From assembly GCF_000302595.1 (NCBI RefSeq), contig NZ_JH947128.1, positions 1 through 64,000 on the forward strand: 64,000 nucleotides of DNA, in the 5' to 3' direction. Positions within the stretch are counted from its first letter, which is position 1, and the number at the start of each line of letters is the position of its first letter. The notes below the pieces were generated by a model, which saw only the letters and a list, made by a program, of their open reading frames with translations, had not been told where the DNA came from and did not search any database. Positions 18,971 through 54,778 of this stretch are shown here, one piece after another. A program made the position numbers and the translations under genes. This DNA is from Pedobacter arcticus A12. Lineage in GTDB: Bacteria > Bacteroidota > Bacteroidia > Sphingobacteriales > Sphingobacteriaceae.

Positions 18971-20739
18971 TAAACCGTAGTTTCTATACTCAATTCCTTC
19001 TTCTGCTTATCATCGATTGTTGATGGAGAATCAATCATCACATCTCTGCCAGAGTTATTCTTAGGAAAAGCAATTACATCACGAATAGAATCCAGACCGG
19101 CAAAAATAGAAACCAATCTATCAAAACCGAAAGCAATACCACCATGAGGAGGTGCACCATATTCAAAAGCTTCTAATAAAAACCCGAATTGTTTCTGTGC
19201 TTCTTCTGGCGTAAAACCTAAGTGTTTGAACATGATAGACTGTAATTCTCTATCGTGGATACGTATGGAGCCGCCACCTATTTCTGTTCCGTTGATTACC
19301 AAATCGTAGGCATTTGCCCTTACTTCGCCTGGGTTGCTATCCAACATCGCGATATCTTCTGGCTTTGGTGATGTAAATGGGTGGTGCATTGCATGGTAAC
19401 GCTCACTTTCCTCATCCCACTCCAACAACGGAAAGTCTATAACCCAAAGCGGTGCAAATTTATTTTTATCGCGTAAGCCTAAGCGGTTACCCATTTCCAA
19501 ACGAAGCTCGTTCAATTGCTTGCGGGCTTTATCAGTTCCACCAGCCATAATTAAAACTAAATCACCTGGCTCGGTATTAAAAGCTACCGACCATTTTTGC
19601 AATTGTTCCTCGTTGTAGAATTTATCTACTGAAGATTTTAAAGTGCCATCTTCGTTATGGCGCATATAAATTAAACCTGTTGCACCAATTTGCGGACGTT
19701 TTACAAAATCTGTAAGTTCATCCAATTGCTTACGGGTATATGATGCAGCACCTTTTGCATTGATACCAACAACCAGTTCTGCGTTATCAAAAACTGGGAA
19801 CCCAAACCCACGCACTAGGTCTCCCTCTCCTTCGGAGAGGACTGGGGTGAGGCTTACAAACTTCATTTCAAAACGGATATCTGGCTTATCAGAACCGTAG
19901 AAACGCATCGCATCAGCATAATCCATTCGAGGAAAATCTTCAAACTCTAACCCTTTCACATTTTTAAACATGTGACGAGTTAAACCTTCGAACAAATTCA
20001 AAATATCTTCTTGCTCAATGAAAGCCATTTCACAATCTATCTGCGTAAACTCTGGCTGGCGATCCGCTCTTAAATCTTCATCTCTAAAACATTTTACAAT
20101 CTGAAAGTAACGGTCGAAACCGGAAACCATTAATAATTGTTTAAAGGTTTGTGGCGATTGTGGTAAAGCATAAAACTCACCCGGATTCATACGGCTAGGC
20201 ACTACAAAATCTCTTGCACCTTCTGGCGTTGATTTGATTAAAACCGGAGTTTCAACTTCTAAAAAGCCCTGAGCATCTAAATATTTACGGATTTCTTGCG
20301 CCATTTTATGACGAAGAATTAAATTATTACGAACAGGATTACGGCGCAAATCCAAATAGCGATATTTCATACGCAACTCTTCTCCCCCGTCGGTTTCATC
20401 CTCAATCATAAACGGAGGTAATTTCGCAACGTTTAAAATCTCCAGATCAGCAACTTTAATTTCTATTTCTCCGGTTGAAATTTTTGGGTTTTTGTTCGAG
20501 CGTTCAAGAACAGTTCCTTTTACTTTAATCACAAACTCGCGACCTAAATCTTTTACTTTTGAGCGTAGCGTAGCTTCGTCATCGGTATTAACTACCAATT
20601 GGGTTAAGCCGTAACGGTCTCTTACATCAATAAATGTGGTTCCACCTAAATCTCTTGATTTTTGTACCCAACCGCTCAATATAACTTCCTGACCTAGATT
20701 TTCGATGGTTAATTCACCGCAAGTATGTGTTCTGTGCAT
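18970..20739 (-). CDS. aspS: Aspartate--tRNA ligase with in-frame repeat insertion
   Basis: Charges tRNA-Asp with aspartate. 589 residues: N-terminal OB-fold anticodon domain, class II catalytic core with motif 2 ([16 protein letters not shown], near 218) and motif 3 (GIAFGFDRL, near 536), and the bacterial insertion domain between. Within the insertion domain, residues 296-307 ([12 protein letters not shown]) are encoded by a copy of the palindromic repeat at 19821-19854. It adds a short charged loop without breaking the frame. The enzyme must be functional, as it is essential and I see no second copy here. Confidence 0.97.
19821..19854 (-). repeat. Palindromic element copy A, in frame in aspS
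   Basis: On the minus strand: arm AGCCTCACCCCAG, then core CCTCTCC-GAA-GGAGAGG. It is read in the aspS frame as [11 protein letters not shown]. Same family as copies B-E. Confidence 0.9.
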
Positions 20740-20917
20740 GATGTTGCTTTTTGTAATAAATATTACGTTTTGTAATAATCTGCGAATATAAGGTAAATAT
20801 ATTTTTATTTGAATTAGTCATCAGTGGATTTACGAGATAAAACCAGTTCATCTACTTGCAGAACTAAACGGACAAAATTTTAATGAAAAATTGCTTTCTT
20901 TGAATGAATTATAAATT

Positions 20918-20943
20918 AAACACCAGATTAGCATCTGGTGTTT
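20918..20943 (-). terminator. Terminator after rbfA
   Basis: AAACACCAGAT (20918-20928) pairs perfectly with ATCTGGTGTTT (20933-20943) around TAGC. The remainder of the 20740-21093 gap shows no gene or other structure on either strand. Confidence 0.75.
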
Positions 20944-21093
20944 TAGACAGGCAGACCTTCCATATCCGTCATCAACTGAAAATTGAACTAAAAAGGTTTT
21001 TGGGTTTGCGGATCAAAATCACCACTCGGATAAAATTCAGGTTAAAGGTAAATTAATAGTCGATGGGCCAAACCAGCACTCACCGTTCAAAAA

Positions 21094-21462
21094 TCACTCT
21101 TCAGATGAATCTTCACTTTTTTGAATTCCACTAAAAACCTTGTCCATACGCTCAACATATTCGTTGGTATCATCTACAAAAAAATCAAGTTGCGGAACAC
21201 TCTTAACTTGATCCTTAATACGCTTCCCAAGGGTATATCTAATCTCAGCAGTTTTTTCTCTGATGGTTCTGATAGCTGTATCGGTATCCTCTGCATTAAA
21301 AAAGCTTAGAAAAACCCTTACTACTCCTAAATCTGGCGTTGCTCTCACTTTGGTAACAGTAATCATCACGTTAGGTAAAAAGGTATTTCCTTCCCGTTGA
21401 AAAATCTCTCCCAAATCTTTCTGTATCACTCTCGCAAATTTCTGCTGTCTTTTTGATTCCAT
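21094..21462 (-). CDS. rbfA: 30S ribosome-binding factor RbfA
   Basis: 122 residues, usual length. RbfA binds the 16S rRNA 5' helix region and helps late maturation of the small subunit. N-terminal SKRQQKFARVIQKDLGEIF and then VTVTKVRATPDLGVVRVF-like and PQLDFFVDDTNEY segments are family hallmarks. It lies 86 bases downstream of hflX on the same strand. The gap is filled by a hairpin repeat, so whether the two share a transcript is unclear. The acidic C-terminal end (EDSSEE) is normal. Confidence 0.93.
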   Translation of the reverse strand: MESKRQQKFARVIQKDLGEIFQREGNTFLPNVMITVTKVRATPDLGVVRVFLSFFNAEDTDTAIRTIREKTAEIRYTLGKRIKDQVKSVPQLDFFVDDTNEYVERMDKVFSGIQKSEDSSEE

Positions 21463-21488
21463 TTTTTTGAAGTTAAAAGTAGAAAGTT

Positions 21489-21539
21489 AAAAGTAGAAAG
21501 TTTAATCTGCTTACTGGCAATTTTAAACTTTCTACTTTT
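21489..21539. repeat. 17-bp hairpin of the AAAGT repeat family
   Basis: 21489-21505 (AAAAGTAGAAAGTTTAA) pairs perfectly with 21523-21539 around a 17-base loop. It is preceded by another AAAAGTAGAAAGTT unit at about 21474. Same simple motif as in the repeats near argD, argC and odhB. Confidence 0.7.
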
Positions 21540-21547
21540 CACTTTCT

Positions 21548-22750
21548 TTAATATAAAAAATTATTAAAAGGATAAATCTTCTGGTTTACGGTTTTTACAC
21601 TTTCGTAAATACGGTTGCGTAATTCTTCTACGTTCTCCTTTTCTGTAGCTGATATAAATATGGCGGGGCTGTTATGTTTAGCCATCCAACTGTTTTTAAA
21701 ATCTGCCAAAGTCATTTTAGGTTTTTCTTCATTTTCAACCTCCCAATCTTGTCCAGCTTCCGCCTCGTGGTAGTTATCTATTTTATTGAAAACAGTAATC
21801 ATTTCCTTATCAATAGCACCTAACTCTTTTAAAGTTTCGTTTACTGTACGGATCTGATCTTCAAAACTTGGGTGAGATATATCTACCACGTGAATTAAAA
21901 TATCAGCCTCGCGTACTTCATCTAAAGTAGATTTAAAACACTCTACCAAATGGTGAGGCAGTTTTCTGATAAACCCTACCGTATCCGAAAGTAAAAAAGG
22001 CACATTATCCAGAACGACTTTTCTAACGGTTGTGTCTAATGTTGCGAACAGTTTATTTTCGGCAAAAACATCTGACTTCGAAAGCATATTCATAATGGTA
22101 GACTTGCCCACGTTGGTATAGCCAACCAAAGCTGCCCTAACCAGTTCTTTACGGTTTTTACGTTGGGTTTCGTTTTGCCTGTCAATTAGTGATAACCTTT
22201 CCTTAAGTACAGAAATCTTTTCCTTAATCATCCGCCTATCACTTTCAATTTGCGTTTCCCCTGGCCCACGCATTCCAATACCACCTTTTTGGCGTTCTAA
22301 GTGTGTCCACATCCGCGTTAAGCGAGGCAATAAATATTGTAATTGCGCTAATTCTACCTGTGTTTTAGCTTGTGCAGATTGTGCTCTACTTGCAAAAATA
22401 TCTAAAATCAGATTGCTTCTATCAAGCACCTTAACATTTAACTCCTTCTCAATATTCCGCAATTGCATCGGCGAAAGCTCATCGTCAAAAACAACAATGT
22501 CTATCTCCTCAGCTTTAACATAATCACGAATTTCTTCTAGCTTTCCGGTACCTACAAAGGTTGCTCTTTCTGGACGCAACATTTTCTGTGTAAACCGTTT
22601 TTCGGTAACACCACCAGCTGTTTCTACTAAAAAAGCAAGCTCGTCCAAGTATTCTTTCTCTTGCTCCTCTGTTTGGTTAGCAGTTATTAAACCCACTAAA
22701 ACCACCCGTTCGGCTTTAGCTTCTGTATCGTAAAATTTCTTTTTTGGCAT
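21548..22750 (-). CDS. hflX: GTPase HflX
   Basis: A 400-residue ribosome-associated GTPase that splits stalled or heat-damaged ribosomes. N-terminal HflX domain (FVGTGKLEEIRDYV; DDELSPMQLRNIE), the glycine-rich helical linker GGIGMRGPGETQIE, then a G domain with P-loop GYTNVGKST near 210, DTVGFIRKLPHHLVECF (switch II), and NKID. The frame and start are typical. It is the upstream gene of hflX-rbfA on the minus strand. Confidence 0.96.
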   Translation of the reverse strand: MPKKKFYDTEAKAERVVLVGLITANQTEEQEKEYLDELAFLVETAGGVTEKRFTQKMLRPERATFVGTGKLEEIRDYVKAEEIDIVVFDDELSPMQLRNIEKELNVKVLDRSNLILDIFASRAQSAQAKTQVELAQLQYLLPRLTRMWTHLERQKGGIGMRGPGETQIESDRRMIKEKISVLKERLSLIDRQNETQRKNRKELVRAALVGYTNVGKSTIMNMLSKSDVFAENKLFATLDTTVRKVVLDNVPFLLSDTVGFIRKLPHHLVECFKSTLDEVREADILIHVVDISHPSFEDQIRTVNETLKELGAIDKEMITVFNKIDNYHEAEAGQDWEVENEEKPKMTLADFKNSWMAKHNSPAIFISATEKENVEELRNRIYESVKTVNQKIYPFNNFLY

Positions 22751-22870
22751 TTATTCCCTTTCTATTGGCAAAGATACAATATGCTTGCCAATTGTTGGAT
22801 AAACTATCGCAATATAAACAAGTAAGCCAACACAAAATCACAAACATTTTATTGCCCAACTTGTTAAGTT

Positions 22871-23053
22871 ATGAAACAACAAAAACATCTTATTACAGTG
22901 CAAAACAAAAATGGGAAACCAATTGCTAAAAATAACTTACCTACAAAAATATGCCTGAGCTGTAAAAAAGCATTTGGCTGGCGCAAAAAATGGAAAAATT
23001 GTTGGAATGACGTAAAATATTGCAGTAAGCATTGCCAAAACATTAAATATTAA
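22871..23053 (+). CDS. DUF2256 family zinc-ribbon-like small protein
   Basis: 60 residues. Two cysteine pairs (CLSC, and YCSKHC) frame a Trp/Lys-rich block (WRKKWKNCWNDVKYC), the DUF2256 signature. Members are commonly found beside photolyase/cryptochrome genes, as here: the cryptochrome DASH gene starts 44 bases after this stop. The function is not established; zinc binding is inferred from the cysteines. Confidence 0.88.
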   Translation: MKQQKHLITVQNKNGKPIAKNNLPTKICLSCKKAFGWRKKWKNCWNDVKYCSKHCQNIKY

Positions 23054-23096
23054 GCAATATTGCATAAAACACCCTTTTTGTTAATTTTTGTAGAGA

Positions 23097-24395
23097 ATGA
23101 GCGGAAAAACAATACTTGTATGGTTTAGAAATGATTTGCGAATCCACGATAATGAGATCTTATGGGAAGCCACGCAAAAAGCATCAACCATAGTCCCTGT
23201 TTATTGTTTAGACCCTCGCTATTTTACCCAAACCAGTTTTGGAACACAAAAAACCGGAAATTTTAGGGCGCAATTTCTATTGGAAAGTCTTGCCGATTTA
23301 AAAAGCTCTTTACAGCAATTAGGTGGCGATTTATTAATTGTAAAAGGCTTACCTGGCGAAATATTACCAGAAATATGCAAAAAGTATAATGTTGACGAAG
23401 TTTATCACCATCGCGAAGTAGCATCAGAAGAAACTGCTATCTCTTCTGACGTAGAAGATACACTTTGGAAAATGCAACTCAATCTAAAGCATTTTATTGG
23501 TCATACCATGCACCATAAAGAAGACTTGCCTTTCCCAATCAAAGACATCCCGGACGTGTTTACAAAATTCCGTAAAAAGGTAGAACGCGAAGCCGAGATA
23601 CGGCCATCTTTTGATACGCCTACACAAATTAATGTCCCAAAAAATCTTGAACAAAGTAACATCCCTACACTGGATGACCTAGGTTTAGTTCATTCAACAG
23701 TAGACAACAGACAGGTTTTAAACTTTAAAGGCGGCGAAACTGAAGGCTTAAAAAGATTAAAGCATTATTTATGGGATACTGATTCACTTAAAACCTATAA
23801 AAAAACCAGAAACGGTTTATTAGGTGCTGATTATAGTTCTAAGTTTTCTCCTTGGTTGGCTGCAGGTTGCTTATCCCCGCGGGCTATTTATTGGGAGGTA
23901 AAACAATACGAAAAAGAACGTGGCGCAAACGACTCTACCTATTGGTTGATTTTTGAATTGCTCTGGCGAGACTATTTTCGGTTTATGTTTAAAAAACATG
24001 GCACCAGTTATTTTGTTGAGGAAGGTTTCAAAGGTAAGTCTCAAGAATATGCAGACAACCAAATCTTGCTTTTTGAGAATTGGAAAAATGCAAAAACGGG
24101 AATCCCTTTTGTTGATGCTAATATGAAAGAGTTGAATCTTACTGGCTTCATGAGCAACCGCGGACGCCAAAACGTGGCATCGTACTTAGTGAATGATTTA
24201 AAAGTGAACTGGACTTGGGGTGCTGCATATTTTGAAGAAAAGCTGATTGATTACAGTCCTGCAAGCAATTGGGGAAACTGGGCCTACATTGCAGGTGTTG
24301 GAAATGACCCACGAGACAACAGGTATTTTAATATTGAAAAACAGGCTAGCGAATACGACCCCAAGGGAGAGTATGTTGATTTTTGGCTGAAGTAA
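23097..24395 (+). CDS. Cryptochrome DASH / photolyase family protein
   Basis: 432 residues. N-terminal photolyase antenna domain (ILVWFRNDLRIHDNEIL) and C-terminal FAD domain (FSPWLAAGCLSPRAIYWEV; LLWRDYFRFM; FMSNRGRQNVASYLVNDL; WGNWAYIAGVGNDPRDNRYF). The last block and overall layout are those of cryptochrome DASH, which binds FAD and an antenna folate and repairs pyrimidine dimers in single-stranded or loop DNA. It is followed 87 bases later by a B12-type MerR regulator and preceded by DUF2256, so the three look like a light-response unit. Confidence 0.93.
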   Translation: MSGKTILVWFRNDLRIHDNEILWEATQKASTIVPVYCLDPRYFTQTSFGTQKTGNFRAQFLLESLADLKSSLQQLGGDLLIVKGLPGEILPEICKKYNVDEVYHHREVASEETAISSDVEDTLWKMQLNLKHFIGHTMHHKEDLPFPIKDIPDVFTKFRKKVEREAEIRPSFDTPTQINVPKNLEQSNIPTLDDLGLVHSTVDNRQVLNFKGGETEGLKRLKHYLWDTDSLKTYKKTRNGLLGADYSSKFSPWLAAGCLSPRAIYWEVKQYEKERGANDSTYWLIFELLWRDYFRFMFKKHGTSYFVEEGFKGKSQEYADNQILLFENWKNAKTGIPFVDANMKELNLTGFMSNRGRQNVASYLVNDLKVNWTWGAAYFEEKLIDYSPASNWGNWAYIAGVGNDPRDNRYFNIEKQASEYDPKGEYVDFWLK

Positions 24396-24439
24396 TACGG
24401 TTAAAATAAATCGCTTTTTTTAAAAAACAAACGCCTCCC

Positions 24440-24447
24440 TATCTTTG
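24440..24447 (+). promoter_or_regulatory. -7 box TATCTTTG of the B12 MerR regulator
   Basis: A perfect TAnnTTTG, 35 bases before the TTG start at 24483. It suggests the regulator has its own promoter rather than only read-through from the cryptochrome. Confidence 0.45.
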
Positions 24448-24482
24448 TTAACAAAGCATAAAACATAAAATAGCAAAGACTT

Positions 24483-25367: not shown

Positions 25368-25448
25368 AAACCTTCGGTTTGTTATGAATAGCCAATTTTA
25401 AGGCTTATTTTAATGGTATTATATTAGTGCTTTACGAAGCTATTTATT

Positions 25449-25456
25449 TACTTTTG
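25449..25456 (+). promoter_or_regulatory. -7 box TACTTTTG of odhA-odhB
   Basis: A perfect TAnnTTTG, 24 bases before the odhA ATG. The -33 element is not clear. Confidence 0.45.
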
Positions 25457-25480
25457 CAAACGAACCATATTAAATTTTAG

Positions 25481-28282: not shown

Positions 28283-28306
28283 TGACGAGGTTATATTAAA
28301 GAAATT

Positions 28307-29839: not shown

Positions 29840-29860
29840 TTTATTGAATATATAAATATC

Positions 29861-29892: not shown

Positions 29893-29918
29893 TTGTTTTA
29901 TTTGGAAAAACATTACGC

Positions 29919-30932: not shown

Positions 30933-30998
30933 CGTTGCTTACCCAAAGTATTGAGCCAAAAATTCATTCAAAATATTAAGCCGAATCAACAAATTTTT

Positions 30999-31094
30999 CA
31001 TGTCGATTGAATCGACATGAAAAATAACGTGTCGAAAAAATCGATAAAAATCGACATGACAGGACAACATGTCGATTGAATCGACATGAGGATT
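30999..31094. repeat. Triple-hairpin repeat block, downstream side of fic
   Basis: Three palindromes in a row: CATGTCGATT-G-AATCGACATG (30999-31019), a looser CGTGTCGA...TCGACATG (31029-31058), and the first again (31068-31088), ending GAGGATT. The whole block is a direct repeat of the one at 32211-32308, on the other side of the Fic gene. Confidence 0.9.
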
Positions 31095-32194: not shown

Positions 32195-32210
32195 TTTCTT
32201 CCTTTTTTTA

Positions 32211-32308
32211 TATGTCGATTGAATCGACATGATAAAATAACGTGTCGAAAATAATCAAAAAAATCGACACGATAAAATAACATGTCGATTAAATCGACAT
32301 GAGGATTT
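32211..32308. repeat. Triple-hairpin repeat block, upstream side of fic
   Basis: Same order as the block at 30999: TATGTCGATT-G-AATCGACATG (32211-32231), CGTGTCGA...TCGACACG (32241-32271), CATGTCGATT-A-AATCGACATG (32281-32301), then GAGGATT. It begins 16 bases before the fic start codon, so it covers the promoter region. Confidence 0.9.
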
Positions 32309-34585: not shown

Positions 34586-35473
34586 TTATTTCACCAATTT
34601 AGTCCCAAATTCTTTCCCAGTTTCCAAATCATTTAAATCATCTGCTTTACCGATATAAACTGTAGATACACCTTTGTTAATTGCATCAAAAGCGTTATGT
34701 AATTTAGGTAACATTCCGTCGGCAACAATACCTTTTGCTTTTAAATCCTCGTATTTGACTGGGTCAATTTCTTTAATCACCGATGTTTCATCATCAACAT
34801 CGACCAAAACGCCTTTTTTCTCGAAACAATAAACCAAAGAAGTTTCGTAAGTTTTGGCCATTGCAACCGCCAAAGTAGCAGCAACTGTATCGGCATTGGT
34901 ATTCAAAAGCTGGCTTTTGCCATCGTGTGTGATTGCAGAAAAAACTGGAATAAAACCCGCTTCAATTAATTTGGTCAGACTTTCTGTACCAATAGAATTT
35001 TCATCTAAATCGCCCACAAAACCAAAATCAACTTCTTTTATTGTAGCATCCGTTGTGGATTTTATTTGTTGAACGGGGCGTTTTTTTGCTTTAATCAAAT
35101 TACCGTCTGCACCGCTCAAACCTAAAGCATTACAGCCAAACATTTGCAGTTGCGCTACCAAGTTCTTGCTGATTAAACCGGCGTAAACCATCGTCACAAC
35201 CCGCAAAGTTTCAATATCAGTAACTCTACGTCCATCAACCATTTTGGCTTCGATATGCATTTCGGCAGCCAATTTAGTTGCCATTTTACCACCGCCGTGA
35301 ACCAATATTTTATTCCCCTTTAAGCCAGCAAAAACTTTTAAAAACTCGTGAAGTTTCTCGGAATTATCGATAACGTTGCCGCCAATTTTTATGACATAGA
35401 GAGCCTCACCCCGACCCTCTCCTAAGGAGAGGGAGGTTGAAGTGGATATATTTTGTGGGTTATTTGATTTCAT
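34586..35473 (-). CDS. argB: N-acetylglutamate kinase family protein, repeat-extended N-terminus
   Basis: 295 residues. Phosphorylates the acylated glutamate in the second step of arginine synthesis. Amino-acid kinase motifs: VIKIGGNVI near residue 28, LVHGGGKMATKL, and DGMLPKLHNAFDAI with a late Lys. Relatives begin just before the VIKIGG block; here about 24 extra residues precede it, and residues 13-24 (SLSLGEGRGEAL region) come from a copy of the palindromic element. No other in-frame start codon exists after the element, so it is translated. Confidence 0.94.
   Translation of the reverse strand: MKSNNPQNISTSTSLSLGEGRGEALYVIKIGGNVIDNSEKLHEFLKVFAGLKGNKILVHGGGKMATKLAAEMHIEAKMVDGRRVTDIETLRVVTMVYAGLISKNLVAQLQMFGCNALGLSGADGNLIKAKKRPVQQIKSTTDATIKEVDFGFVGDLDENSIGTESLTKLIEAGFIPVFSAITHDGKSQLLNTNADTVAATLAVAMAKTYETSLVYCFEKKGVLVDVDDETSVIKEIDPVKYEDLKAKGIVADGMLPKLHNAFDAINKGVSTVYIGKADDLNDLETGKEFGTKLVK
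35402..35435 (+). repeat. Palindromic element copy B, in frame in argB
   Basis: On the plus strand: AGCCTCACCCCGACC then CTCTCC-TAA-GGAGAG. argB reads the opposite strand, giving TSLSLGEGRGEAL. Orientation is reversed relative to copy A. Confidence 0.9.
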
Positions 35474-35513
35474 TAGTTTATTTATTCTCGTTTTTTTTCG
35501 ACAATATAGGAAA

Positions 35514-35545
35514 GTCCTCTCCTTCGGAGAGGATTAGGTGAGGCT
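35514..35545 (-). repeat. Palindromic element copy C, forms the 3' end of argF'
   Basis: On the minus strand: AGCCTCACCTAAT then CCTCTCC-GAA-GGAGAGG. argF' enters the element in the same frame as aspS (SLT) and stops at the TAA created by the variant arm. Confidence 0.9.
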
Positions 35546-36490
35546 TATGCTCTCTAACATCTCCTTTAATACTGCCTGAGCTGCCCAAACTCTATTATTT
35601 GCTTGGTTTAACACCAAAGAATTTGGTCCGTCTAAAATTTCATGAGAAAGTTCTAATCCTCTACGTACCGGCAAACAATGCATTACACCTGCATTATTGG
35701 TCAATTTTAACTTCTCGTTAGTCATCATCCAACCTTCACCATCAGTTAAAATTTTTCCGTAATCGTTATAAGACGACCAGTTTTTCACATAAACAAAATC
35801 GGCACCGGACAAAGCTTCATCCTGATTATTGGTTACTGTTGCGTCTCCAACGAATTGAGGTGCCAAATCATAACCTTCCGGATGGGTGATTACAAAATCG
35901 TAATCTGCTTTGTTCATCCACTCGGCAAAAGAATTCGCAACTGCTTGTGGCAATGGCTTTACGTGAGGTGCCCAAGTTAAAACAACTTTAGGCTTTGCTG
36001 TTTTTTTTAATTCTTCTATCGTGATTAAATCTGCCAAGCTTTGTAAAGGATGGCGTGTTGCCGACTCTAAACTTACCACCGGCACACCGCTGAATTTGAC
36101 AAATTTGTTGAATATTGTTTCTGCATAATCATCCTCTCGGTCAACTAAGCCAGGGAAAGAGCGGAAACCAATGATATCGCAATATTGCCCCATTACCCCA
36201 GCTGCTTCGCGAATATGCTCCACTGTTGTACCATTCATGATTACACCGTCCTGAGTTTCCAAAGCCCAACCTTCCTTGTCCAAGTTCATCACAATAACTT
36301 GCATTCCTAAGTTCATCCCCGCCTTTTGCGTACTTAAACGGGTACGTAAACTCGGGTTTAAGAAAATTAAACCTAAGGTTTTATGCTTGCCTAGCTGTTC
36401 ATCAACAAAAGGTTTTTTCTTTAACGAAATCGCATCGGAAAGTAATTGTTGAATATCGGTTACGTCGTTTACAGAAGAGAATAATTTCAT
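35534..36490 (-). CDS. argF': N-acylornithine carbamoyltransferase (ArgF' type)
   Basis: 318 residues, clearly of the acetyl/succinyl-ornithine transcarbamylase branch known from Xanthomonas and Bacteroides fragilis, not ordinary ArgF. Seen: carbamoyl-phosphate loop SLRTRLST at 47-54, then HPLQSLADLITIEE and MHCLPVRRG. The residue that sets succinyl versus acetyl specificity (Pro90 in the B. fragilis enzyme, Glu in the Xanthomonas one) is Val90 here. The last residues (SLT) and the stop codon come from a palindromic repeat. It works between argD and argE in the linear acyl-citrulline route. Confidence 0.93.
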   Translation of the reverse strand: MKLFSSVNDVTDIQQLLSDAISLKKKPFVDEQLGKHKTLGLIFLNPSLRTRLSTQKAGMNLGMQVIVMNLDKEGWALETQDGVIMNGTTVEHIREAAGVMGQYCDIIGFRSFPGLVDREDDYAETIFNKFVKFSGVPVVSLESATRHPLQSLADLITIEELKKTAKPKVVLTWAPHVKPLPQAVANSFAEWMNKADYDFVITHPEGYDLAPQFVGDATVTNNQDEALSGADFVYVKNWSSYNDYGKILTDGEGWMMTNEKLKLTNNAGVMHCLPVRRGLELSHEILDGPNSLVLNQANNRVWAAQAVLKEMLESISLT

Positions 36491-37852: not shown

Positions 37853-37884
37853 AAGTTTAAAGTTGAGAGTGAAAAGTTTAAAGT
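37853..37884. repeat. AAAGTTTAAAGTTGAGAGT repeat, one side of the four-helix gene
   Basis: AAAAGTTTAAAGTTGAGAG followed by a second AAAAGTTTAAAGTT. The matching inverted motif (CTTTAAACTTTGAACTTTC) is at 38288-38309, on the other side of the four-helix gene. Confidence 0.6.
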
Positions 37885-37929
37885 TCCACCTAGCTTTTTA
37901 AAAAAATCAATATAAAATTGACTTGGGTT

Positions 37930-38283
37930 TTAAAGTCTTACCTTTTTAATAAGAGAAATCAGCATAGCTTTAATTTCTCCTATTGATTTGTTAAGTGTAA
38001 TAAAATCTGTCTCAGAAATATAATTGAGTTCCTTCGAAAGAAAAATTAAATACTCGGCTTCCTGTGAGGAACCTAGTGAGATTTGTAGAAAGTTAGCAAA
38101 GTCCTTTTGAGTAAATCTACCAGAACCTTCTGCAATATTTGTGGGGATTGAATATCCGGATCGTCGTAATTGACTAACTAAACCAAAAATTTCTTCTTTC
38201 GGAAAACTCTTAGTGATTTTATAAATCTCTAGAGTAAGCTCATGTGATTTTTTCCAGACTTGAAGATCCTTATAATTTTGCAT
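37930..38283 (-). CDS. Four-helix bundle protein (23S rRNA intervening-sequence family)
   Basis: 117 residues. YKDLQVWKKSHELTLEIYKI at the start, FGLVSQLRRSGYSIPTNIAEG in the middle, and ISLGSSQEAEYLI are the hallmarks of the S23/IVP family of pentameric four-helix proteins. These were first seen in 23S rRNA intervening sequences but are scattered in many genomes. Function unknown. It sits inside the arginine operon between argC and argD and is bordered by inverted AAAGTT-type repeats, which suggests it was inserted. Confidence 0.9.
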   Translation of the reverse strand: MQNYKDLQVWKKSHELTLEIYKITKSFPKEEIFGLVSQLRRSGYSIPTNIAEGSGRFTQKDFANFLQISLGSSQEAEYLIFLSKELNYISETDFITLNKSIGEIKAMLISLIKKVRL

Positions 38284-38287
38284 GTCG

Positions 38288-38309
38288 TCACTTTAAACTT
38301 TGAACTTTC
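38288..38309. repeat. Inverted AAAGTT motif, other side of the four-helix gene
   Basis: CTTTAAACTTTGAACTTTCA, the reverse complement of the motif at 37853-37884, placed just upstream of the four-helix gene and downstream of argC. Confidence 0.55.
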
Positions 38310-38311
38310 AA

Positions 38312-39379
38312 CTAAAAATAAGAAGCCTTCAACCTCAACCCTGCTTTCTCATCCAACCCAAACATCAAGTTCATATTTTGTACTGCTTGTCCGGATGCAC
38401 CCTTTAATAAATTGTCTGTGATGGATAAAATCAACAATTTATCACCGTGTTTTTCTAAATGGATTAAGCATTTGTTGGTATTTACCACTTGCTTTAAATC
38501 GATGTTAGCTTTACTCACATGTGTGAAAGGAGCATCTTTATAAAAATCCTGATAAAGTTTCTCTGCTTCTTCCAACCTTAAATCACAGTCGGTATAAATG
38601 GATGCTATAATTCCACGGGGAAATGCTCCTCGGTATGGAATAAAGTTGAGCCTCACCCCAGCCCTCTCCGAAGGAGAGGGAGTGCCGTTCAAGTTTTTAT
38701 CTTCAAGCGGAGAAAAGCTATTTAAGGTTTCACCAATTTCATTTAAATGCTGATGTTCGAAAGCTTTATAAACCGATAAATTATTATTTCTCCAGCTAAA
38801 ATGGGATGTTGCTCCTGGTTTTTGCCCGGCACCAGTTGAACCTGTTGTTGCCGAAATATGCACTTCAGATTTTAACAAACCAGCAGCTGCCAAAGGCAAT
38901 AAGCCCAACTGCAAACAAGTTGCAAAACAACCAGGATTGGCAATATTGGTTGCCGATTTTATTTTTTCTTTGTTCAATTCAGGCAAGCCGTAAGTAAAAA
39001 GTCGAGAGTTGAAAGTTGAAAGTTGCTGATCGGACTTTATACTTTGCACTTTTAACTCTGAACTATTTTTAAGTCTGAAATCCTGAGATAAATCAATGAT
39101 TTTAATTCTGTCTTCGAACTTATTTGCTTCTAAAAACTTTCTGGCGTCGCCATGCCCCACACAAAGGAAAAGCACATCAATATCCTGCGAAAGCTCATTG
39201 GTAAACTTCAAATCGGTATCACCGAATAAATCAGTGTGAACATCTGAAACTAAATTTCCAGCGTTACTATTACTATGAACAAAAGCAATATCAACGTTTG
39301 GATGATTAACTAAAATCCTTAATAATTCACCGCCTGTATAACCTGCTCCGCCTACAATCCCTGCTTTAATCTTTTTCAT
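38312..39379 (-). CDS. argC: N-acylglutamate-5-phosphate reductase with two repeat insertions
   Basis: 355 residues; typical enzymes of this branch are about 25-30 shorter. NADP-dependent reduction of the acyl-glutamyl phosphate. Seen: AGIVGGAGYTGGELLRIL at the start, the catalytic Cys in ANPGCFATC, and HQHLNEIGE near residue 205. The excess length is repeat DNA: residues 105-127 (KVQSIKSDQQLSTFNSR region) come from an AAAGT hairpin, and residues 233-244 ([11 protein letters not shown]) from a palindromic element. Both fall between conserved blocks, so the enzyme is probably active. Confidence 0.94.
   Translation of the reverse strand: MKKIKAGIVGGAGYTGGELLRILVNHPNVDIAFVHSNSNAGNLVSDVHTDLFGDTDLKFTNELSQDIDVLFLCVGHGDARKFLEANKFEDRIKIIDLSQDFRLKNSSELKVQSIKSDQQLSTFNSRLFTYGLPELNKEKIKSATNIANPGCFATCLQLGLLPLAAAGLLKSEVHISATTGSTGAGQKPGATSHFSWRNNNLSVYKAFEHQHLNEIGETLNSFSPLEDKNLNGTPSPSERAGVRLNFIPYRGAFPRGIIASIYTDCDLRLEEAEKLYQDFYKDAPFTHVSKANIDLKQVVNTNKCLIHLEKHGDKLLILSITDNLLKGASGQAVQNMNLMFGLDEKAGLRLKASYF
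38649..38682 (+). repeat. Palindromic element copy D, in frame in argC
   Basis: On the plus strand: AGCCTCACCCCAGCC then CTCTCC-GAA-GGAGAG. argC reads the other strand as [12 protein letters not shown], a different frame from that used in argB. Confidence 0.9.
39001..39065. repeat. AAAGT-family hairpin inside argC
   Basis: AGAGTTGAAAGTTGAAAGT (from 39005) can pair imperfectly with ACTTTATACTTTGCACTTTTAACTCT-type sequence ending near 39059. The whole insert is translated in argC. Same family as 21489-21539 and 37853-37884. Confidence 0.65.
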
Positions 39380-43212: not shown

Positions 43213-43251
43213 AACCGCTATACAAACTCACCGAGGAAAGAGATTGGCTAG

Positions 43252-44214: not shown

Positions 44215-44215
44215 A

Positions 44216-46449: not shown

Positions 46450-46531
46450 TTTGGAACGAAAGTAAAGTCTTTTTAGCGTAATTTGGCCATGCTTTAGAAT
46501 TTTTAACATTTTTTAGCGAATTTCACAACGC

Positions 46532-47188
46532 ATGAATCCACTACAAACAGATAATTTAATTGCCTTAAGTTTATTGTTAGATGAAGATATCTATGTTTTA
46601 AATGATTTACCTAAAAAAGAGTTCGACCAAATTGTAGCCGAAAAACCTGTTGAGGTTTCAGCTAAAACCACAGAGACAAACAACAGCCCAGTTGTGGAGA
46701 TTCCAAAAATCGAGAAACAGACAATTCCCTCTCCTAGCCCAGAAGTCAGTCCGGCAACTATAATTCCAAAAATTGAGAAAGCAAGTGTGCCTTTAAAAAC
46801 AAAAAATGATGGTTTTGAGTATTTAGGAGAAAACAACAAATACATTTTAATTATCGTAAATAACGAGCAAGAAAAGTTTTTAAACAAAGCGGATTTAGCG
46901 TTTCTTGTAAAAATAATGGGCGCTAAAAAATGGGTATTAGAAGACGTTGCTATTGTAAACATGGCGAAATACGAGGACTTAAACTTTGAGGATTTAACAG
47001 CCTATTTTGCTTGCAATAAAATAGTCACTTTTGGTTTTAATCCGGCAGTTTTAAATATTGTTGGCGCTGTGGCAAACCAAAAAACCACTTATAAAAATGT
47101 TGCTGTTTTAGGAACCTGGGATTTACCAAAATTACAGACCGACGTACCCAAGAAAACTATTTTTTGGAATCAACTTAAGGCATTTTAA
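46532..47188 (+). CDS. Conserved protein of unknown function
   Basis: 218 residues. Short N-terminal helix (DNLIALSLLLDEDIYVL), a Pro/Glu/Lys/Thr-rich linker from about 35 to 90, then a compact alpha/beta domain (YILIIVNNEQEKFLNKADLA, LVKIMGAKKWVLEDVAIVNM, KIVTFGFNPAVLNIV). Two-part layout with a flexible linker. I do not recognise the family. It is divergent from the isomerase operon and 211 bases ahead of rdgB. Confidence 0.65.
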   Translation: MNPLQTDNLIALSLLLDEDIYVLNDLPKKEFDQIVAEKPVEVSAKTTETNNSPVVEIPKIEKQTIPSPSPEVSPATIIPKIEKASVPLKTKNDGFEYLGENNKYILIIVNNEQEKFLNKADLAFLVKIMGAKKWVLEDVAIVNMAKYEDLNFEDLTAYFACNKIVTFGFNPAVLNIVGAVANQKTTYKNVAVLGTWDLPKLQTDVPKKTIFWNQLKAF

Positions 47189-47300
47189 TGATTGAAGGAG
47201 TGAAGTAAAGAATGATTGAAGAATGGAATGAGTGAAGGAGAGAATGATGGAGGAGTGGAATAATGGAATGAGTGAAGGATGGAATAATGGAAAGGTAGAA
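47188..47300. repeat. Degenerate tandem GAATGAGTGAAGG-type repeats
   Basis: The units GATTGAAGGAGTGAAG, GAATGATTGAAG, GAATGAGTGAAGGAG, GAATAATGGAATGAGTGAAGG follow each other with small changes. No protein family is seen across it. It separates the unknown gene from rdgB. Confidence 0.7.
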
Positions 47301-47326
47301 TTAGAACAACAACGGCTTTACCCAAA

Positions 47327-47392
47327 ACTTTTTACTTTTTACTTTTTACTTTTACTTTTTACTTTTTACTTTTTACTTTTTACTTTTTACTT
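47327..47392 (+). repeat. Nine-unit ACTTTTT heptamer array before rdgB
   Basis: Nine units of ACTTTTT (one is 6 bases) plus a partial unit run from 47327 to 47392. Eight A and the rdgB ATG at 47400 follow. The array occupies the region where the promoter and 5' UTR should be. Confidence 0.9.
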
Positions 47393-47399
47393 AAAAAAA

Positions 47400-47975: not shown

Positions 47976-47980
47976 TAACA

Positions 47981-48487: not shown

Positions 48488-48502
48488 TGGCTTTACCTAA
48501 AA

Positions 48503-49066: not shown

Positions 49067-49106
49067 TATTCAAATAAAAGCATCCGGCCTAAACCGAAAA
49101 TAAATA

Positions 49107-50108: not shown

Positions 50109-50192
50109 AAAAGAGGGTTTTAAATATAAAAACACAAAAATATCAAAAAAGTATTCAAAATAACGCTTTACATCCTTGTTGCTATCATATTA

Positions 50193-53100
50193 TTGTTGGC
50201 AGGCATTATTTTGTCGCTACAACTTAAACCCGTTCAAACTTGGGCTGCAAAAAAAGCGGCTACTTTTCTATCTTCAGAGCTAAAAACGCAGGTGCAAATT
50301 AAAAGTTTGTATTTGGAACCTTTTAAATCATTGGTGTTAGAAGGTTTTTTTATTGCTGATTTAGATAAAGACACCTTATTAAATGCACCCAAACTTACGG
50401 TCGATATTGCCTACTTCGCTCCGTTTAAAGAACGAAAAATCACGCTACAAAGCATTGAACTGGAAAACGCGACTTTCTACTTAAAGGAATATAAAGACAC
50501 AACCACAAACCTATCCTTTATTATCAATTACTTTAATAGCGGCGTGGTAGATACAACCGTAAAAAAGAAACCTTTTGATTTTACGCTGAATAATGCAACA
50601 ATCAAAAACCTAGATTTTAGGTATAAAAACTACCGCACAAGAGATACGTTGATTAACGGAGTTAATTACGACGACGTACATATTACCCACTTAAGCACCA
50701 ATTTAGAAAACATAAATACCAAAGATTATATTTTAAAGGCGAAAATCAATAAGCTAACTTTTAAAGAGCGTAGCGGTTTTGTTTTGAATAACCTAACCGC
50801 CAACGCAACAATTGCTTCCGACAGGATTGTATTAGAACAATTGTATTTAAAAACTCCAAAATCTAGCTTACGAGATTATTTTAGCATGCGCTTTAAAAGC
50901 TATGCAGATTTTGATGACGTAATTAACAAAGTGACTATGGAAGGTCATTTTAAAAATGCAAGAATAGATGCTAAAGACATTGCTTTTTTTGCGCCACAGA
51001 TTGACTATATCACCCTTCCTATTGATGTTACCGGTGTAATTAAAGGAAAAGTAAATGGTTTAAAAGCAAAGGACTTACTGATTAAGGCTGGAAAAACCAC
51101 CTACATCAAAGGTGATTTTGAAGTAAAAGGCTTGCCCGAAACAAAAAACACCTTTTTGGATTTAAACTTCAAGCAGATTTACTCTAACAAAGCAGACGTT
51201 GATTATATTATTGAGCGCTTAACTGGAAATAAGAAGAATACGTTACCAGATGTGATCAACAAGTTTGGCAATATTAACTTCAAAGGGCAGTTTACTGGTT
51301 TTTTTAATGATTTTGTTGCTTACGGCGATTTTAAAACAAAACTAGGGCAAATAAAATCGGATGTTAACATGAAAATCAACCGTAATAATGTGCCTTCCTA
51401 TAGCGGTAAACTACAAGCAATAGATTTCAACCTTGGCGATTTAATTGGGGAAGAATCTATCAACCGGACATCTTTTGTTGCAAATATTGACGGGCGTGGT
51501 TTTGATTTAAACCAGCTTACCGAAAAACTAGATGTAAAGGCAACCTATTTTGAATTTAATGGTTACAGCTACAGAAACATCAAGGTAAACGGGAACATTA
51601 ACAAGCAGGTATTTGATGGTAAACTTAACATCGATGATAAAAACATCAATCTTGACTTTGATGGAAAAGCAAACTTAAACCCAAACTTACCTGAGTTTAA
51701 TTTTATTGCGAATGTACAACAGGCCAGACTGCATAAACTGAATTTTGGGAAAGACACCCTTTCGGTGGATGCGGTTATAAACACCAACTTTAAAGGCAGT
51801 AACCTAGCGAACATTCAAGGGCAGTTTAATGTAAACGATTTAAGAGTTACCACTACAGAAAAATCAGTGGTTATTGATTCGGTACAGTTAAAAGCCGAAG
51901 GCGTGGGAACCGACCGTTTATTGGCGCTAACTTCTAACATTGGAGATGCTTACATTAAAGGCGAGTATGATTTAAATACGCTACCATCTGCGTTCAAAAC
52001 CATTGTTAAAAAATATATCCCATCGTACCGAACGGCTATTGTAAAGCCAAAAAATCAGAACTTTGAATTTAGAGTCGATTTGAAAAACTTCGATTACCTA
52101 TCTAGCTTATTAATTCCTGAACTAAAAATACCGGAAAGGGGTGCGTTTTACGGCAAATTTAATTCTAGCAAAGACACCGTTACCTTAAGTGGTTTTGTAA
52201 AAACACTTACCTATAACGACATTACTTTTAACAATATTATTATTGACCAAAACACCAACAGCAAATCTTTAGAAGCGATTGTATCTATGGATAAGGTGCA
52301 GTTTTCTGAGGGTGGCGCTTTTGTACAGAACATCATTATTCAAAACACCTTAAGAAACGACAGCCTTACGTTCAACGTAAAGTTATCAGACAAAGATGCT
52401 ATTAACCAACTGGATTTATACGGATTGGTGAAATTTGGCACCGATACGCTTGCGCAGATTAGTTTACTACCGTCTGAGGTCATCATCGATAACCAGGTAT
52501 GGAAAATACAGGACCAGGTTAAGATCAAATTCGAAAACGCTCGTACATTAATTGAGAATTTTGAATTGAGTAGCAATAATCAATTAATTGCCATTAATGG
52601 AGCCATATCCAAAAACCCAGAAGACGGGCTGGAAGTGGTGATCAAAGATTTCAAAATTTCATCATTAAGTCAGGTTACTAAGGCTTATGGCGTGGATTTA
52701 AGTGGAACATTAAATGGAACAGCAAACCTTTCTGCAATTTTAGGTACGCCAAATATCAAATCGGATTTAACAGTTGACACTTTAAAATACAACAACACCC
52801 TTATTGGTAATTTAAAAACGGTTTCCGTTTACAACAACGCTACCAACAAGCTTGATGTTGACGCCAGCATTTTTAAAGGCAATACCAAAACAATGGACGT
52901 TAAGGGTAATATTGACATTAAAAGCGAGACTAACAATCTTAACTTAGATGTTGCCTTAGATAAAACCGAACTGGTAATTGTTGAACCTTTTGTAAAGAAC
53001 TTAGTTTCTAATTTAAAAGGCCAAATTAGCTCTGATTTAAAAGTTACCGGTAAGTTTAACAACCCAAAAATTGACGGTACGGTTGACTTTTTAAACACCG

Positions 53101-54611
53101 GAGTTACGGTTAATTACCTGAAAACTGCTTACACTTTTACGCACAAAGTAACCGTAGAAAATAGTGTGATCAACATCAACAACCTTAAATTAACGGATAT
53201 CAATGGTAATATCGCAACTGCAAACGGAACTGTTGACCTACGCAAGCCAGACAACCCAACCATTACTGCCGAAATTAATGCCACAAATTTTATGGCTTTA
53301 AACACCACGGCCAAAGACAACCCACTCTATTACGGTAAAGCTTTTGCAACGGGAAAGTTCACATTTGCAGGACCTACCGATGCGATGAAAATCAACATCA
53401 AAGCGAAAACGGAAAAAGGCACAGAGTTTACAATTCCTTTAAACGGTGCTTCTACGGTTAGTTCTGATGATTTTATTACCTACGTTGCCAAAGATTCTTC
53501 CTTAAATAAAAAAGAAGCTGTTAATTATTTCAACGGTTTAACCATGGAGTTTGACTTAGCCGTTGATGAAGGAACAACAGCTAATATTTTAACGGAAGTA
53601 GGGAATTTAACCGGACAGGGAACGGCCCAGTTAAATCTTAAAATTACCAGTTTAGGCGATTTTGAAATGAAAGGCGATTATATCATCGATGCTGGTCAGT
53701 TTGATTTTACAGCCAATAACCTCATTGATAAAACTTTCGATATTAAAAAAGGTGGTACCCTAAGATGGACTGGCGACCCAAGTGATGCAGAAATCAACAT
53801 CAACGCGAGTTATACTACTAGAGCTTCTCTCGCTCCTTTATATGCGGCGGCTGGGCGTACTTTACCAGATAAAGATCAGAATCTGCGTGTACTTGCAGAG
53901 GCTGACATGCTTTTGAAAGGCTCGTTGTTAAACCCACAGGTTGATTTTAATTTAAGTTTCCCAAACAACTCTGGCTATATGACAGAGTTGCAAGGTTATT
54001 TAGATGATAAAGATAACGAAGCGCAACAAGTAATTAATTTGGTGGTGCGTAACAGCTTTAACGGCAATTCTAGCGCTGGTATCGGTATTGATAACCAAAC
54101 CTTAATTGGCTCGGGGCTGGAACTTGGTTTTAGTAAACTGCAGAACATTGTATCACAAACATTGGGTGTAAAAAACCTAGATTTCAACTTACGTTCTTTA
54201 AGTGAGTTTGGTATTGGTTACAGCTTTTTTAACAATCGATTAAAAGTGCAGGGCAATTTCGTAAACAATAAATACGACAATGATTACTTTAACAATAACG
54301 TTTTCAATTCGTCTTTTAACGATTTAACCCGAGATGCGCAGATGACTTACGACATTAAGAAAGATGGAAGTTTGGTAGGTAAAATCTTCAACAGGCCATC
54401 AAGCCGTGATTTTTTTAACTTGAATAACGACATTTACACAAACGGAGTTGGTTTAGTGTATGTGCAGGAATACGACACGTTTAAAGAATTTATCCAGAAT
54501 ACTTTCGGCAGAGCCAAAAAGAAAACCGAAGAACAGGAAAAAGAAGAATCAGAAAGCCGAAGCAAAACTCGCCAGTCGCCTATAGTTTATCCACCTAAAA
54601 AGGAGGATTAG
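50193..54611 (+). CDS. TamB-like translocation/assembly module protein
   Basis: About 1472 residues from the first usable start, a TTG at 50193. An N-terminal hydrophobic segment, then a very long beta-rich body of repeated strands, and a C-terminal TamB/DUF490 domain with SGYMTELQGYLDDKDNEAQQV. TamB-type proteins span the periplasm and move lipids or help outer membrane proteins assemble. The coding frame continues with membrane-helix-like residues (KVFKITLYILVAIILL) upstream of the TTG to a stop at 50127, with no ATG, GTG or TTG on the way. So the true start is uncertain, and a non-canonical codon near 50142 is possible. The C-terminus is lysine/glutamate-rich. Confidence 0.88.
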   Translation: MLAGIILSLQLKPVQTWAAKKAATFLSSELKTQVQIKSLYLEPFKSLVLEGFFIADLDKDTLLNAPKLTVDIAYFAPFKERKITLQSIELENATFYLKEYKDTTTNLSFIINYFNSGVVDTTVKKKPFDFTLNNATIKNLDFRYKNYRTRDTLINGVNYDDVHITHLSTNLENINTKDYILKAKINKLTFKERSGFVLNNLTANATIASDRIVLEQLYLKTPKSSLRDYFSMRFKSYADFDDVINKVTMEGHFKNARIDAKDIAFFAPQIDYITLPIDVTGVIKGKVNGLKAKDLLIKAGKTTYIKGDFEVKGLPETKNTFLDLNFKQIYSNKADVDYIIERLTGNKKNTLPDVINKFGNINFKGQFTGFFNDFVAYGDFKTKLGQIKSDVNMKINRNNVPSYSGKLQAIDFNLGDLIGEESINRTSFVANIDGRGFDLNQLTEKLDVKATYFEFNGYSYRNIKVNGNINKQVFDGKLNIDDKNINLDFDGKANLNPNLPEFNFIANVQQARLHKLNFGKDTLSVDAVINTNFKGSNLANIQGQFNVNDLRVTTTEKSVVIDSVQLKAEGVGTDRLLALTSNIGDAYIKGEYDLNTLPSAFKTIVKKYIPSYRTAIVKPKNQNFEFRVDLKNFDYLSSLLIPELKIPERGAFYGKFNSSKDTVTLSGFVKTLTYNDITFNNIIIDQNTNSKSLEAIVSMDKVQFSEGGAFVQNIIIQNTLRNDSLTFNVKLSDKDAINQLDLYGLVKFGTDTLAQISLLPSEVIIDNQVWKIQDQVKIKFENARTLIENFELSSNNQLIAINGAISKNPEDGLEVVIKDFKISSLSQVTKAYGVDLSGTLNGTANLSAILGTPNIKSDLTVDTLKYNNTLIGNLKTVSVYNNATNKLDVDASIFKGNTKTMDVKGNIDIKSETNNLNLDVALDKTELVIVEPFVKNLVSNLKGQISSDLKVTGKFNNPKIDGTVDFLNTGVTVNYLKTAYTFTHKVTVENSVININNLKLTDINGNIATANGTVDLRKPDNPTITAEINATNFMALNTTAKDNPLYYGKAFATGKFTFAGPTDAMKINIKAKTEKGTEFTIPLNGASTVSSDDFITYVAKDSSLNKKEAVNYFNGLTMEFDLAVDEGTTANILTEVGNLTGQGTAQLNLKITSLGDFEMKGDYIIDAGQFDFTANNLIDKTFDIKKGGTLRWTGDPSDAEININASYTTRASLAPLYAAAGRTLPDKDQNLRVLAEADMLLKGSLLNPQVDFNLSFPNNSGYMTELQGYLDDKDNEAQQVINLVVRNSFNGNSSAGIGIDNQTLIGSGLELGFSKLQNIVSQTLGVKNLDFNLRSLSEFGIGYSFFNNRLKVQGNFVNNKYDNDYFNNNVFNSSFNDLTRDAQMTYDIKKDGSLVGKIFNRPSSRDFFNLNNDIYTNGVGLVYVQEYDTFKEFIQNTFGRAKKKTEEQEKEESESRSKTRQSPIVYPPKKED

Positions 54612-54744
54612 GCATTAGTATAAGGAATTCATTGATCATTGGTTTACTAGTCAATAGAGAATAGTCAGCAGTGAGTTATCTATTCTCTCATTCAAAATTC
54701 TACCATTCGATTATTAGAGATTGCAGAGTCGTCCTGCAAGTCAG
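54612..54744. other. Short gap with an AGAGAATAG / CTATTCTCT inverted repeat
   Basis: An AGAGAATAG motif near 54655 is repeated inverted near 54681 (CTATTCTCT). No gene. Copy E of the palindromic element follows directly. Confidence 0.4.
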
Positions 54745-54778
54745 CTCCCTCTCCTTCGGAGAGGGCTGGGGTGAGGCT
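54745..54778 (-). repeat. Palindromic element copy E, at the stop of the M1 peptidase gene
   Basis: On the minus strand: AGCCTCACCCCAGCC then CTCTCC-GAA-GGAGAG. The AG that begins the element is the last two bases of the peptidase TAG stop codon (54777-54779). TamB and the peptidase converge here. Confidence 0.9.

Follow-up and report, generated by a model that had tools for sequence, protein, structure and literature searches.

Introduction

The PIT and TM_ECO elements of bacteria are intrastrand triplex repeats with the layout CCCTCNCCC, N3-6, GGGNGAGGG, N3, GGGNGAGGG; 3610 copies of TM_ECO have been counted in 262 proteobacterial genomes, and the portion of that report available to us names no mobiliser for them (Holder 2015, PMC4666352). 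Intragenic repetitive extragenic palindromes (REPs) and REPtrons have already been described as well (PMC3733652), and 100 CCCTCTCCC palindromes have been recorded in Enterobacter 638 (PMC2869309). The EDxHD enzymes constitute a homing endonuclease family (PMC3943268), and a Vsr-like DUF559 protein of Caulobacter is responsible for an SOS response in methylase-lacking cells (PMC12907096). The open-licence papers searched contain, in the portions available to us, no link between DUF559 and intrastrand triplexes or palindromes, which is weak evidence of absence. Here we analyse a three-arm palindrome of ~34 nt that occurs five times in a 64,000-nt stretch of Pedobacter arcticus A12 (contig NZ_JH947128.1, positions 1 to 64,000; hereafter the window). 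The new observation is that triplex-type palindromes flank DUF559 endonuclease genes, and a comparison of sequences makes it probable that the window palindromes derive, as non-autonomous copies, from the ends of a mobile, homing-like and apparently unspliced DUF559 unit. The original prediction, which was made from the window itself and described a palindrome inserted in frame in protein genes, saw the footprint of something larger: a DUF559 unit in leuS that is invisible from the window.

A DUF559 Unit Inside leuS

Nine of the 18 genomes of the genus (G numbers; G000 is the genome under study) carry DUF559 inside leuS. In G000, G006, G007, G010, G013 and G014 inverted palindromes of the GCCTCA type lie on both sides of the nuclease, in G003, G005 and G015 the palindromes are of the CCCCCC type, and the leuS frame runs unbroken through the unit in eight of the nine (in G015 up to its contig end). 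In G000 the unit, which is the only full one found there, occupies the loop before the EVFTTRVDT motif. Because that genome holds a single ORF (open reading frame) above the LeuRS cut-off, with DUF559 inside, the cell has no LeuRS other than one translated through the nuclease, barring processing of the protein or mRNA. The inserts measure ~150-240 aa and consist mostly of DUF559 and palindromes, so that an intein fold would hardly fit. In 69 ORFs NCBIfam named no intein, but for 29 of them the scan covered only E 1e-60 to 1e-30, and the remaining 40 include few with the unit. Among the remaining genomes, G002, G016 and G001 have short loops without DUF559, other repeats fill the same loop in G008, G012, G011, G017 and G009 (the last partial), and G004 was counted neither as empty nor as full, its own copy lying at a contig end and the other looking foreign. 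In related species (L416, L417, L411, L419 and L420; L numbers denote individual loci) this loop contains in-frame GACTTCGGACTT-like and ATCAAGAATC-like repeats, a single loop thus receiving several kinds of invader.

In ten species pairs, synonymous sites are saturated or nearly so, both in the LeuRS flanks and in DUF559. The dN/dS of DUF559 amounts to 0.07-0.12 in the five of ten pairs where it is finite, and these low values indicate that the nuclease is maintained. The 5' palindrome of the leuS unit has a synonymous distance of 0-0.37 with no amino-acid change (Nei-Gojobori, 16 codons) and is held at the DNA level through selection or conversion.

Three-Arm Palindromes at DUF559 Loci

A DUF559 domain lies beside a palindrome in the LeuRS of a Cyclobacteriaceae bacterium (L227) and in the IcmF of L152, which led to a search of DUF559 loci. 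The family (PF04480) gave 22 matches in 15 of the 18 genomes of the genus and matches in 170 of 296 Bacteroidota genomes. We counted the three-arm motif within 250 bp of the DUF559 gene at 85 Bacteroidota loci (16 from the genus, 29 from the phylum and 40 further ones): it is present 5' in 61, 3' in 59 and on both sides in 51. The first 45 loci contribute 35, 32 and 30 to these counts and the second 40 contribute 26, 27 and 21. This sampling was non-random: six of the 22 genus loci were left out (two at contig ends, four weak or partial), 29 of 30 phylum loci, the best-scoring matches, entered the first set, the second set stems from lower down the list, and the leuS loci of the genus are orthologous. 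The motif density near DUF559 is 4.31 and 3.15 per kb, as against 0.26 and 0.12 far from it, and none of 37 control flanks carries the motif (aspS 0/29; Y1_Tnp 0/8, where five of the eight are equal-scoring copies, so that few are independent). Outside Bacteroidota, 12 plasmid loci picked for diversity together with ycjD show the motif on both sides in five of 13 cases (Sphingomonas, Synechocystis, Deinococcus twice, Sinorhizobium) and on one side in four. In E. coli K-12 (L320, 5205-5240 and 5398-5420) the DUF559 gene ycjD is followed ~170 bp downstream by a TM_ECO copy, and its end is overlapped by a degenerate palindrome. This region is found at a cover of at least 80% in 3362 of 5426 genomes; three E. 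coli genomes lacking it have other genes there and yielded no clean empty ycjD site. Altogether, the association of triplex-type palindromes with DUF559, along with the in-frame units, is well supported.

Each palindrome has three arms: the pyrimidine and purine arms pair with each other, and the third is a match to the purine arm; on one strand the window element reads CCCTCTCC-TTC-GGAGAGGG-CTG-GGGTGAGG. Motif finder and covariation agree on the PIT/TM arrangement, in which short loops separate a pyrimidine arm, a purine arm and a third, purine-rich one that follow each other in this order. The stem sequences vary among loci while the three arms covary: among 137 perfect hairpins at 66 of the 85 loci, with 36 distinct purine arms, the third arm has at most one mismatch to the purine arm in 115 (103 exact). 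Permuting the purine arms, a control that ignores the relatedness of loci, gave a mean of 58 and a maximum of 75, and shuffled flanks gave a mean of 22 and a maximum of 33. The same behavior is visible at a single site, as the 3' leuS palindrome is CCCTCTCC/GGAGAGGG/GGGTGAGG in G013 and G007 (with one change in G010) and CCTTCTCC/GGAGAAGG/GGATGAGG in G014, G006 and G000: All three arms have changed jointly between species, from a G.G:C to an A.A:T triple.

The DUF559 gene comprises ~110 codons and is Vsr-like. A profile of 13 DUF559 proteins, YcjD included, matches the homing-family nuclease PDB 3r3p ('Mobile intron protein') with E 2.2e-8, an entry that we take to be I-Bth0305I of the EDxHD family. 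These 13 proteins share 16 invariant columns, and the invariant E, D, E and H presumably form the active site, as judged from the fold. Nineteen of the 40 further Bacteroidota loci lie in frame inside longer ORFs; the hosts that could be named are given in Table 1, and 12 other host ORFs received no name at the limits used. L274 had been considered as a leuS host and was rejected, its sequence reading as another gene. In G017, the start of HisF (L306, L313; named by eye) carries an in-frame DUF559 fusion, whose G007 counterpart has an in-frame stop. A DUF559 tree (108 columns, modest support) separates the two nuclease types found in leuS and places the leuS, metH, icmF and recG insertions in one clade of 31 rows (SH-aLRT 98), which also includes four unnamed ORFs and two stand-alone genes. 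Four of the five hsdR insertions form a separate clade (SH-aLRT 99), and the host labels require 14 changes on the tree versus 38.9 when shuffled.

Nuclease Types and Same-Site States

Across the genus, the two nuclease types accompany two palindrome types. The six genomes with the GCCTCA-type leuS unit contain 40, 11, 15, 14, 10 and 7 copies of that palindrome and the other twelve contain 0-8 (Mann-Whitney, one-sided p 0.0005, with leuS copies included and kinship uncorrected). In G015, G003, G005 and G016 there are 0, 0, 0 and 1 GCCTCA-type copies alongside 8, 14, 7 and 1 of the CCCCCC type, which numbers 0 in the other 14 genomes. Of these CCCCCC-type copies, 4, 4 and 2 in G015, G003 and G005 lie at the unit on the leuS contig and the rest elsewhere.

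Moreover, individual sites exist in several states. The LeuRS genes of M. polytrichastri (L144), M. gilvus (L129) and Mucilaginibacter sp. (L198) contain an inverted palindrome pair with a short spacer and no nuclease, and L227 has a full unit at that very site. Before the motif GNNGLGLMLLG of IcmF, L173 is empty, L196 has one palindrome (LTPALSEGEG), and L152 and L362 have a full unit; in L152, the stop-free frame extends over 1275 codons, and the window's type-A palindrome forms the unit's left end. In AspRS, the loop is short and lacks the element in all 13 genomes from outside the genus, and the suggested comparison with distant orthologues thus came out in favor of an insertion. Within the genus, 17 genomes gave an aspS match: The site is empty in G011, G001, G006, G012, G010 and G002, occupied in the + orientation (SLTPxLSxGEG) in G000, G014, G017 and G013, occupied in the - orientation (APLLWRGGGEA) in G007, G004 and G008, and holds degraded - copies in G005, G016 and G015 and a vestige in G003. 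The orthologues in G011 and G001 are 93% identical and lack the insert. On the gene tree these states are scattered, the starred branches requiring at least three changes per label. ArgC is empty in G001 and G007, and the same loop carries the opposite orientation in G013 and G010.

Dispersed Copies and Their Placement

A narrow pattern (AGCCTCACCCCNNCCCTCTCCNNNGGAGAGG, up to three mismatches) occurs at 29 places in the 4.23-Mb genome, whose contig 4 includes the window, and a wide pattern covering subtypes A, B and C at 40; since the reversed control of the first and the control of the second both gave 0, the copies are not due to chance. Copies are found in 13 of the 18 genomes of the genus and range from 0 to 40. 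For placement within the genus, ORFs were called by length and codon usage. In G000, 39 of the 40 copies could be classed (9 interior, 6 N-terminal, 5 C-terminal, 3 edge, 16 intergenic), and in the other genomes of the genus 79 of 83 (32 interior, 11 N-terminal, 3 C-terminal, 11 edge, 22 intergenic), where 46 of the 79 lie within or extend an ORF. A scan of species genomes found at least 119 stretches with 132 copies: 29 interior, 11 N-terminal, 5 C-terminal, 8 edge, 1 small-ORF and 78 intergenic. Among 80 stretches listed, 75 have Bacteroidota titles, four are from Cloacimonadales (one a metagenome-assembled genome) and one is from Saccharibacteria. As the coding density of the at least 119 stretches is 86% by ORFs, 29 interior copies out of 132 mean that copies are depleted in genes relative to random placement. 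The statement that copies are mostly coding holds for the window; in the whole genome 20 of 39 copies are inside or extend an ORF, 3 are on an edge and 16 are intergenic. A dispersed, mobile-looking and mostly open palindrome that enters protein genes is nevertheless what we see, with genes being entered frequently, albeit less than chance would give. That it is mostly open is likewise correct, but openness in any frame gives an incomplete account: of the 29 interior copies in the species scan, 25 read as SLTPxLSxGEG or SLSxGEGxGEA types, and this concentration in one phase per orientation indicates that the frame is selected.

Hosts of in-frame copies named by NCBIfam include leuS, miaB, metH, valS, icmF, ileS, purH, hisD and others. 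A PglX-like methylase ORF (L285 5-2812, - strand) contains an in-frame match to a REP-associated tyrosine transposase (RAYT) and a palindrome. In G000, the two cores lie 97-102 bp apart in each of four inverted pairs (Table 1), although the sequences between them seem unrelated.

Copies in the Window

All five predicted window copies are present, and reading the ORFs reproduced their contexts in aspS, argF', argC and argB as well as the contribution to a peptidase stop (Table 1). An independent re-reading of the consensus agrees that five of six frames are open and one contains a TGA. The names aspS, argB, argC and argF' stem from sequence reading and the earlier call, and the M1-type peptidase name is that of the original prediction. 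The ArgB context reads ..SLSLGEGRGEALY.., and a peptide of this type is found at the same place in G013, G007 and G014. ArgF' ends ..ESISLT*, the end being supplied by the element, and related C-terminal copies exist in G007 and G014; the argF' copy is ~1 base shorter between the arms than the other window copies, and its core lies 100 bp from that of the argB copy, with which it forms a pair. In the peptidase ORF the TAG stop combines a host T with AG from the element. The copies at 38649 and 54745 are exact reverse complements across 34 nt.

Table 1. Palindromes and host genes in the window, inverted pairs in G000 and host genes of DUF559. For window palindromes, + denotes the strand reading AGCCTCACCCC...GGAGAGG.
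Feature	Location	Strand	Remark
three-arm palindrome	19821..19854	-	in frame within aspS
aspS, host gene	18970..20739	-	589-aa ORF
palindrome	35402..35435	+	near argB start; opposite-strand reading SLSLGEGRGEA; left half of inverted pair
argB, host gene	34586..35473	-	ORF
palindrome	35513..35546	-	argF' 3' end (SLT then stop); right half of inverted pair
argF', host gene	35534..36490	-	ORF
palindrome	38649..38682	+	in frame within argC (PSPSERAGVR)
argC, host gene	38312..39379	-	ORF
palindrome	54745..54778	-	first two bases finish TAG stop of preceding gene
M1-type peptidase ORF	54777..56759	-	ORF
inverted pairs in G000	C2:593542/593644, C2:639824/639923, C3:708653/708750, window 35416/35516		
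DUF559 in leuS	L377, L382, L383, L390, L227		NCBIfam-named
DUF559 in leuS	L323, L326		read by eye
DUF559 in metH	L331, L354, L355, L366		NCBIfam-named
DUF559 in icmF	L362, L365, L152		NCBIfam-named
DUF559 in hsdR	L328, L330, L334, L343, L385		NCBIfam-named
DUF559 in recG	L386, L388		NCBIfam-named

The window holds further repeats. Between argC and argD (37855-38318), inverted AAAGTT-rich repeats at 37856-37884 and 38290-38318 enclose a 117-aa ORF, which may be a further small mobile unit; near-duplicate blocks of a different palindrome, ATGTCGATTGAATCGACATG, lie ~1.2 kb apart at 30994-31094 and 32206-32307; and tandem AATGATTGAAGG-like and ACTTTTT repeats lie near each other at 47187-47394.

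Proposed Mechanism and Alternatives

Starting from the DUF559 association, the three-way covariation, the in-frame placement, the same-site states and the type matching, we infer recognition, cutting and copying by the nuclease, the absence of splicing, the direction of cause and a homing mechanism. The full unit consists of palindrome, DUF559 gene and palindrome, and in each palindrome the match of the third arm to the purine arm follows the pattern of a purine-motif intrastrand triplex. Being usually open in one frame, the unit can lie within a host gene, where it would become part of the translated host protein. The nuclease would recognise the three-arm ends of its own unit, most likely while the DNA is single-stranded in replication or repair. 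It would cut there and/or at the empty allelic site, whereupon repair might copy the whole unit, or one end alone, to new places. Insertions would persist in host loops or gene ends that can accommodate additional residues, and loss of the nuclease would leave inverted pairs and single palindromes.

The order of events might also be the reverse, with DUF559 as a homing nuclease that targets pre-existing hairpins or triplex repeats, so that the palindromes attract DUF559. Palindromes do occur without DUF559, also at the leuS and icmF sites, G000 has 40 palindromes and one palindrome-flanked DUF559 unit, and the leuS loop accommodates the unrelated repeats described above in five genomes. A single prior hairpin would, however, not yield the matched, locus-specific arms on both sides in 51 of 85 loci, the nuclease type of G015, G003 and G005 has its own palindrome type, and the IcmF of L173 is empty beside L152 and L196, though these are not a close pair; we therefore consider this order unlikely. 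Still less probable is a stand-alone element resembling miniature inverted-repeat transposable elements, which some transposase would move in the style of the Rickettsia palindromic elements (RPEs) and for which the DUF559 link would be secondary. In-frame entry into unrelated genes does resemble RPEs as far as these are covered in the available part of PMC10969869, and the predicted link to them amounts to this analogy; against it stand the motif density, which is ~17 and 26 times greater next to DUF559 than at a distance, and the matching of nuclease and palindrome types, with the transposase search having been limited to Y1_Tnp. A regulatory or structural DNA element, such as a terminator, attenuator or replication pause, kept for the benefit of the host would account for the several copies at gene ends and stops and for the conservation of the leuS 5' element beside near-saturated flanks. 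We deem it highly improbable in view of the patchy presence, the opposite orientations at one site in close relatives and the 0 to 40 copies per genome within one genus; in addition, PIT motifs are reported to have no promoter or terminator activity in the available part of PMC4666352. REP elements mobilised by RAYT (Y1 tyrosine) transposases, finally, were rejected as largely refuted and have the slightest chance of all, because, despite the REP-like size, inverted pairs and intragenic copies and the ten Y1_Tnp matches in G000, none of the eight Y1_Tnp loci (five of them equal-scoring copies) is flanked by the three-arm motif and no core palindrome lies within L039-L043 (four weaker Y1_Tnp matches, one strong).

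Several findings weigh against the DUF559 unit as the source of the palindromes. The motif is missing on one or both sides at 34 of the 85 loci and altogether at four of the 13 outside Bacteroidota, and the flanking palindrome of G002 is confined to the two DUF559 flanks of that genome and is not dispersed. Conversely, G008, G001, G017 and G012 have 2-8 GCCTCA-type copies and no leuS unit, so that a lost or trans-acting nuclease must be assumed. The leuS frame of G005 (C160, L299) breaks just after the DUF559 domain near a long C run, which may be real or an assembly error. The clean insertion that had been predicted is not borne out, as a few host codons are replaced at the aspS and argC sites, and no target duplication was recognised there. 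Nor did aspS reveal a clear co-conversion tract in what is a weak test that we do not use as support: G013 and G012 differ at 4/30 just right of the site compared with a gene average of ~1.4/30, and G008 and G012 are identical for 240 bp on the left. An AlphaFold model of the LeuRS-DUF559 fusion (L227) had a mean pLDDT of 37.6 and is useless for structure.

With these points taken into account, we lean, by a narrower measure than for the window copies themselves, toward a new class of mobile element: a DUF559 gene bounded by triplex palindromes that would sit in frame and unspliced in loops of core or essential enzymes (LeuRS, MetH, IcmF, RecG and HsdR), home via its three-arm ends and be the source of PIT/TM-type palindromes of several phyla. 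Triplex-type palindromes have long been known, and with DUF559 as a candidate mobilising enzyme the question becomes testable. Nuclease domains persist under purifying selection inside enzymes that cells can hardly spare, and the palindromes flanking these embedded nucleases also occur alone in other genes. If the proposal is true, repeats taken for curiosities of DNA structure would be footprints of mobile elements, and odd in-frame peptides in annotated proteins (SLTPTLSEGEG, PSPSERAGVR) would be explained.

Comparison with Known Systems

The window element resembles PIT/TM in its three-arm layout and in being dispersed and strain-variable. It differs in having 8-nt rather than 9-nt arms, in belonging to Bacteroidota, whereas TM_ECO was counted in proteobacteria, in often lying in frame inside genes and in being tied to DUF559; furthermore, triplex folding was demonstrated for TM_ECO oligos, while the triplex of the window element is read from the sequence layout. 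RPEs share the in-frame palindromes in unrelated protein genes but measure ~150 bp instead of ~34 nt and belong to another phylum, and the three-arm design and a candidate autonomous partner set the window element apart from them. As in a REPtron, an enzyme gene stands between palindromes that it supposedly spreads, with non-autonomous copies, inverted pairs and some intragenic copies; unlike in a REPtron, no Y1/HuH transposase was found beside the element, the enzyme being DUF559, a PD-(D/E)XK/Vsr-like nuclease, and the unit can sit in frame within host enzymes. With the EDxHD homing genes such as that of I-Bth0305I it has in common a related nuclease sequence, conserved enzymes as hosts and the same host gene across families; in contrast to them, no intron or intein was recognised, the host frame crosses the nuclease, and there are palindromic ends and dispersed nuclease-less copies. 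The DUF559 unit thus works like a REPtron or a homing element and meets the full definition of neither.

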